A DNA stretch of 64,000 bases from Bacteroidota bacterium (GTDB lineage: Bacteria > Bacteroidota > Bacteroidia > SXHM01): the NCBI GenBank assembly GCA_947478465.1, contig CANJWH010000011.1, forward strand, positions 1-64,000, in the 5' to 3' direction. Both the position numbers and the translations under genes were made by a program. Of this stretch, positions 30,607-31,271 are shown one piece after another. The stretch's first letter is position 1. Each line of letters opens with the position of its first letter. The notes beneath the pieces are model-generated. The model did not search any database. It was not told the DNA's origin and was given only the letters and a program-made list of their open reading frames with translations.

Positions 30607-30621
30607 GTAAAATGTATTAGC

Positions 30622-30693
30622 CAAATAGCCAAGTAGGAATTAGGAGTTAGCAATCACGTGGTTGCTAACTCCTAATTCCTACTTGGCTATTTG
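30622..30693. repeat. perfect inverted repeat, 32-bp arms, 8-nt spacer TCACGTGG
   Basis: CAAATAGCCAAGTAGGAATTAGGAGTTAGCAA and its exact reverse complement. Confidence 0.95.
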
Positions 30694-30698
30694 CTTGT

Positions 30699-31037
30699 TT
30701 ACTTACTGATTACCTCCCAATACTTATCACGTTCAGCTTTTAGGGTTAGCAGTTCTTTTTTCAGTTGTTCCAGTTCAATTAATAAAGCCCGTTCGCGATG
30801 GGTAGTTTGCAGGGCGGGGGGCAAAAGAGTTGTGTAGTGTTCTACCAGATTTAGGTTCAAGAGTTCACTTAGCTCCAACAGAATGAGAATATCGGGATTC
30901 TGATTTTTGAGTTTTTGGGTAAGGTAGTTGGGCGATTTTCCCATTCCAAGGCTTATCTTTTTAAGTGATCTCCCACGCAGTTTCGCATATCCTTTAACGG
31001 TTTCAAGAAGGTTAGGTAGTGTTTTCTTTTCTTCCAT
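30699..31037 (-). CDS. small XRE-like helix-turn-helix protein with C-terminal coiled coil
   Basis: RSLKKISLGMGKSPNYLTQKLKNQNPDILILLELSELLNLN HTH, then ELEQLKKELLTLKAERDKYWEVISK; ATG at 31037 preferred over the TTG at 31043. Confidence 0.75.
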   Translation of the reverse strand: MEEKKTLPNLLETVKGYAKLRGRSLKKISLGMGKSPNYLTQKLKNQNPDILILLELSELLNLNLVEHYTTLLPPALQTTHRERALLIELEQLKKELLTLKAERDKYWEVISK

Positions 31038-31052
31038 ATTCAATTTATTATT

Positions 31053-31230
31053 AGAAATAAGACATTAGGGTATAGAAATAAGATACTTAGGTACAAAAAT
31101 AAGATAACTGGGTAAAGAAATAAGATATAGTGGTATATAAATAAGATAGTATGATAGAGAATTAAGATAGTTAGGTAGAGAAATTAGATACCTGAGTACA
31201 GAATTAAGACTGCTGGGTAGAGAAATCATA
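31053..31230 (-). repeat. array of eight 21-bp degenerate tandem units plus a partial ninth, immediately upstream of the HTH gene
   Basis: units 31053-31073, 31074-31094, 31095-31115, 31116-31136, 31137-31157, 31158-31178, 31179-31199, 31200-31220; + strand consensus AGAAATAAGATAxNNNGGTAx; no length variation. Confidence 0.97.
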
Positions 31231-31235
31231 TTTTC

Positions 31236-31271
31236 TCAAAAAAAATCCCCTTGACTTGGGCAAGAGGATTT
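31236..31271 (-). terminator. Rho-independent terminator of the S8 peptidase gene
   Basis: minus strand AAATCCTCTTG-CCCAAGT-CAAGGGGATTTTTTTT. Confidence 0.75.

Follow-up and report, generated by a model that had tools for sequence, protein, structure and literature searches.

Several described systems place repeated DNA sites next to the gene of a small DNA-binding protein. BldC of Streptomyces, a small HTH-type protein of the MerR-like kind, binds a variable number of direct repeats head-to-tail as cooperative multimers (PMC5859096). In the type Ib, II and III plasmid partition centromeres (parC with ParR, tubC with TubR) tandem repeats lie upstream of the gene for the DNA-binding adaptor, which is autoregulated (PMC5016525). 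Repressors of the SinR and lambda-CI type, which belong to the XRE regulators, act at multipartite operators of 2–3 palindromic sites, and 17 bp is a typical size for an XRE operator. Plasmid iterons are direct repeats of about 17–22 bp, or about two helical turns, next to an autoregulated DNA-binding gene. Here we describe a row of eight 21-bp repeats directly in front of a predicted SinR-like HTH gene in a Bacteroidota genome, and show that a comparable arrangement, with a different repeat sequence at each locus but almost always the same 21-bp spacing, precedes most of the related regulator genes tested across the phylum, which suggests a widespread and apparently undescribed kind of multi-site genetic switch.

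The repeats were examined in a 64,000-nucleotide stretch of contig CANJWH010000011.1 (hereafter the window). An initial annotation made from the sequence alone had reported eight consecutive units of exactly 21 bp with variable columns 13–16 and 21, followed by a decaying ninth, and this observation was confirmed. The eight ungapped units occupy positions 31053–31220 (minus strand, in the orientation of the HTH gene), and the decayed ninth unit (AGAAATCATATTTT on the plus strand) occupies 31221–31234. Tandem Repeats Finder (TRF) reported a 21-bp period over 31052–31226, and the lag-21 score was 74.5 compared to a maximum of 12.4 in 1000 shuffles of the 500-bp region. Mean pairwise identity between units is 0.72 (range 0.57–0.86), with all columns other than 13–16 and 21 near-invariant. 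Read circularly, the conserved columns form a single 17-bp block, GGTAnAGAAATAAGATA (TATCTTATTTCTnTACC in the orientation of the HTH gene), followed by a 4-bp variable linker. The array fills the space between an intrinsic-terminator-like hairpin at 31243–31271 (minus strand), which ends the upstream subtilase gene and whose T-run abuts the ninth unit, and the start codon of the HTH gene, from which it is separated by 8–14 bp. The subtilase gene (peptidase S8, PF00082; 31320–33119, minus strand) is probably not part of the system. On the other side, a near-perfect inverted repeat at 30615–30700 (TAGCCAAATAGCCAAGTAGGAATTAGGAGTTAGCAA...) between the convergent PKD/CHU_C and HTH genes is probably a bidirectional terminator; weak matches to microRNA families in Rfam were attributed to hairpin artefacts.

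The HTH gene (30699–31037, minus strand; ATG at 31037, alternative TTG start at 31043, stop at 30699) encodes a protein of 112–114 aa that we refer to as HTH-A. It matched Pfam HTH_3 only weakly (E = 0.0012, below the cut-off for that family), whereas a profile search also found SinR (E = 0.006). An AF2 model built from 11 homologues (pLDDT 80.9) contains the five helices of a lambda-repressor-like XRE domain and a long C-terminal helix. Foldseek matched this model to SinR (3zkc and 3qq6, rmsd 1.9 Å; TMt 0.73 for 3zkc), including SinR in its DNA complex, although no match had E<0.001. By analogy with this fold, the recognition helix is inferred to be YLTQKLK (residues 39–45 of the model; 30906–30926, minus strand).

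To determine whether the arrangement is a one-off we examined the flanks of related genes, as the initial annotation had proposed. Direct homologues in the genus and in another family each have a 21-bp array 5′ of the gene, in most cases with a different consensus. Extension to other XRE types gave 55 genes in related genomes, of which 43 carry an array within 500 bp upstream (41 of period 21 bp and two of period 22 bp) and none carries one downstream. Because the queries were partly chosen from array-bearing genes, the resulting 78% is not an unbiased frequency. By comparison, an array was found at 36 of 1066 ORFs (3.4%) in sampled stretches of five genomes, on which these background rates rest, and at 2 of 306 ORFs in the genome of the window (Fisher p about 1e-44). 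A phylum-wide search with an HTH_26-type profile found seven further genes in six families, six of which have 21-bp arrays, two of these six being from other classes of the phylum; the seventh is weak, with a score of 14.8. None of 12 XRE genes from viral contigs has an array. Genes without an array are clustered on the HTH tree (3 changes compared to 11.0 in shuffles), indicating that array presence is lineage-dependent. One HTH clade (loci L123 and L131 of genome G068) has 22-bp rather than 21-bp arrays, with palindromic units. Palindromic units are not a general rule, however, as only 7 of 39 arrays were palindromic at p<0.05 and the window array was not among them, nor was a conserved block confined to half the unit (6 of 39 arrays, not significant).

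The consensus differs between loci, but array similarity rises with protein identity on the gene strand and much less on the opposite strand (Mantel rho 0.19, 0/2000 permutations), a trend that could also arise from linked co-descent. A stronger test was provided by an unlinked array of the window consensus, located between tatA (PF02416) and the type III glutamine synthetase gene glnA in the genome of the window (G000; locus L009, contig C7, 3098–3230) and at the same place in a congener (G003; locus L032, contig C6, 1475–1650). The two consensus sequences agree at 19 of 21 columns and their column conservation is correlated (rho 0.60, the best of 21 rotations). Substitutions between G000 and G003 in the HTH-A array avoid the columns conserved in the tatA array, amounting to 18% in its 11 most conserved columns compared to 47% elsewhere (rho -0.76, permutation p<0.001); the reciprocal test gave rho -0.44 (p 0.02), whereas the comparison of G000 with a second congener, G005, was not significant. 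No match to this consensus was found in four congeners that lack the HTH-A orthologue. In G005 the HTH-A orthologue (locus L026, contig C75) has frameshifts, which could reflect a pseudogene or an assembly error, while its array is retained and was the only one of this consensus found in that 87% complete MAG. We read these data as evidence of a trans-acting sequence-specific binder, most simply HTH-A. In contrast, the consensus of the paralogue HTH-B was found only at its own locus in the genome of the window at the stringency used. In another genome, G063, an array lies between a TatA-like ORF, recognised by eye, and an HTH gene (L049). Orthologous arrays differ by exactly 21 or 42 bp, that is by one or two whole units.

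Many array-HTH loci also carry a gene for an uncharacterised protein of ~310 aa with a predicted N-terminal helical bundle and C-terminal beta domain (A3; model pLDDT 89.6), located either upstream on the same strand or divergently, with the array in the shared intergenic region between it and the HTH gene. A profile of its N-terminal part found five further genes, two beside HTH genes (L196, L203) and three in random stretches (L182, L184, L190), and comparison of coordinates showed that all five have a 21-bp array at their 5′ side. No significant match was found in Pfam, PHROGs or PADLOC; there was only a partial NCBIfam S-layer match in one member, and fold matches were limited to generic beta-sandwiches. 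At L084, L090, L101, L182, L184 and L190 21-bp arrays lie directly upstream of genes for small proteins of helical type and unknown function (210–306 aa), one of which has an fn3 domain. In most cassettes of the genus (L015, reversed 530–880; L058–L063) a second, different short HTH/coiled-coil gene sits just upstream of the helical-bundle gene.

The explanation that we favour, with moderate confidence, is that the array is a multi-site operator for the HTH protein encoded next to it. In this view each unit (17-bp site plus 4-bp linker) would bind the SinR-like HTH, and the spacing of two helical turns would place all sites on one DNA face, so that protomers joined through their coiled coils would load cooperatively and form a short nucleoprotein filament over the promoter region. 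The likely outcome would be switch-like negative autoregulation of the HTH gene, plus control of a few other loci with an array of the same consensus, which for HTH-A would be the tatA-glnA intergenic region. The array itself, its association with HTH genes, the private consensus of each locus, the phase-preserving turnover of units and the constraint shared by unlinked arrays are shown by our analysis, whereas binding of the array by the regulator, control of its own gene, cooperativity and the sign of regulation are inferred. Several observations weigh against this view or limit it: 21-bp arrays also occur without an adjacent HTH gene, some between convergent genes, so HTH adjacency is not required; the units of the window family are not palindromic, unlike classical XRE operators; and no sigma-70-type promoter was found, in a search that did not model Bacteroidota promoters. 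The interpretation offered in the initial annotation, namely cooperative binding by the adjacent HTH/coiled-coil protein or alternatively a structured leader RNA, is thus supported in part: the operator array is well supported by the comparative evidence, and the RNA is not supported. Its argument that strict unit length speaks for function rather than recent slippage is only half right, because whole-unit gains and losses show that unit turnover does happen. If the operator reading is right, many small "HTH domain-containing" genes in Bacteroidota come with a readable, species-specific operator array, so that DNA specificities could be read directly from the genome and regulator-site co-divergence studied in dozens of natural pairs. 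It would also explain a class of degenerate intergenic tandem arrays as functional operators and give a way into the uncharacterised protein family found beside them. A more far-reaching reading, which we regard as tentative and less likely than not, is a phylum-wide, undescribed three-part module comprising a small XRE regulator, a private and fast-diverging 21/22-bp satellite-like operator array and the helical-bundle/beta-domain protein, in which array consensus and recognition helix diverge together so that each genome carries several mutually insulated copies, with a function possibly beyond simple autoregulation, such as chromosomal nucleoprotein assembly or cell-state switching.

Turning to ALTERNATIVES, the most probable of these readings, although we consider it unlikely, is that the arrays are generic helically phased satellites of these genomes, shaped by a general nucleoid or recombination factor and expanded by unit duplication, beside which HTH genes merely tend to sit. 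Arrays of period 21, 42 or 41 bp range from about 4 intergenic arrays per 400 kb in the genome of the window to about 18 per 335 kb in another, and many are not next to HTH genes. One orphan array of about 16 units (TATCACGTGAGACAAGATAGT) lies between convergent genes in the genome of the window (locus L010, contig C31, 4234–4589), and no relatives of it were found in six congeners. Some arrays contain higher-order repeats of 63–84 bp, and intergenic arrays at L098 (17215–17620), L165 (5910–6211), L158 (281–602) and L188 (2538–2782) have a pure 42- or 41-bp period with no 21-bp signal, some of their units containing hairpin-like dyads. These observations, together with the whole-unit indels, make it likely that a general process makes or keeps phased arrays, but such a process does not explain the enrichment upstream of HTH genes or the column-specific constraint shared by two unlinked arrays in two species. 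The 22-bp period in the HTH clade of G068, a genome in which most arrays in random stretches have 21-bp multiples, also speaks against it. It is still less likely that the array is a centromere- or iteron-like site of a partition, replication or selfish element with the HTH as adaptor. Despite the similar layout, no motor NTPase of the ParA/ParM/TubZ type and no Rep gene was recognised from translations next to the array or, by reading of translations rather than a profile search, among the neighbours of the other array loci. The window HTH had no match in plasmid or phage collections, nor did an HTH_26-type relative, and several different arrays occur per chromosome. A transcribed structured leader or guide-type RNA is very unlikely: the array would lie in the 5′ leader if transcription started upstream of it, and some other arrays have palindromic units, but fold z-scores were +0.79 (sense) and -0.18 (antisense), no relevant Rfam family was found, and the variable part is only 4 bp without spacer-like diversity. 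The 21-bp period with its 4-bp variable linker, with no nuclease or Tas genes recognised among the neighbours, likewise does not fit CRISPR or TIGR arrays, which have long repeats with unique spacers and associated nuclease or Tas genes. A heptad-repeat peptide (21 bp = 7 codons) can be dismissed as highly improbable, because although the array is open in one minus-strand frame (54 aa), stops in arrays equal the column-shuffled expectation (1.33 compared to 1.32) and periods of 22 and 41 bp are not multiples of three.

We found no description of such arrays in the open-access literature, subscription journals not being covered. The proposed mechanism would work most like that of BldC, which shares a small HTH-type protein and asymmetric direct-repeat units with the window family, but BldC sites are 9-bp repeats, few in number, at many promoters with one consensus, whereas here the repeats are 21 bp, about nine per array, with a private consensus per regulator, and the protein has a predicted XRE/SinR-like fold with a coiled coil in place of the MerR-like wHTH fold. 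The partition centromeres share the position of tandem repeats upstream of the adaptor gene, but here no NTPase partner was seen, the locus is chromosomal and several different arrays occur per genome. Plasmid iterons are similar in unit length and placement, but no Rep gene or origin features were seen, and multiple unrelated arrays are present on one chromosome. SinR and lambda-CI type repressors share the predicted DNA-binding fold, and the 17-bp conserved block of each unit agrees with the size of their operators, but in place of 2–3 palindromic sites the arrays described here consist of 4–19 phased direct repeats.
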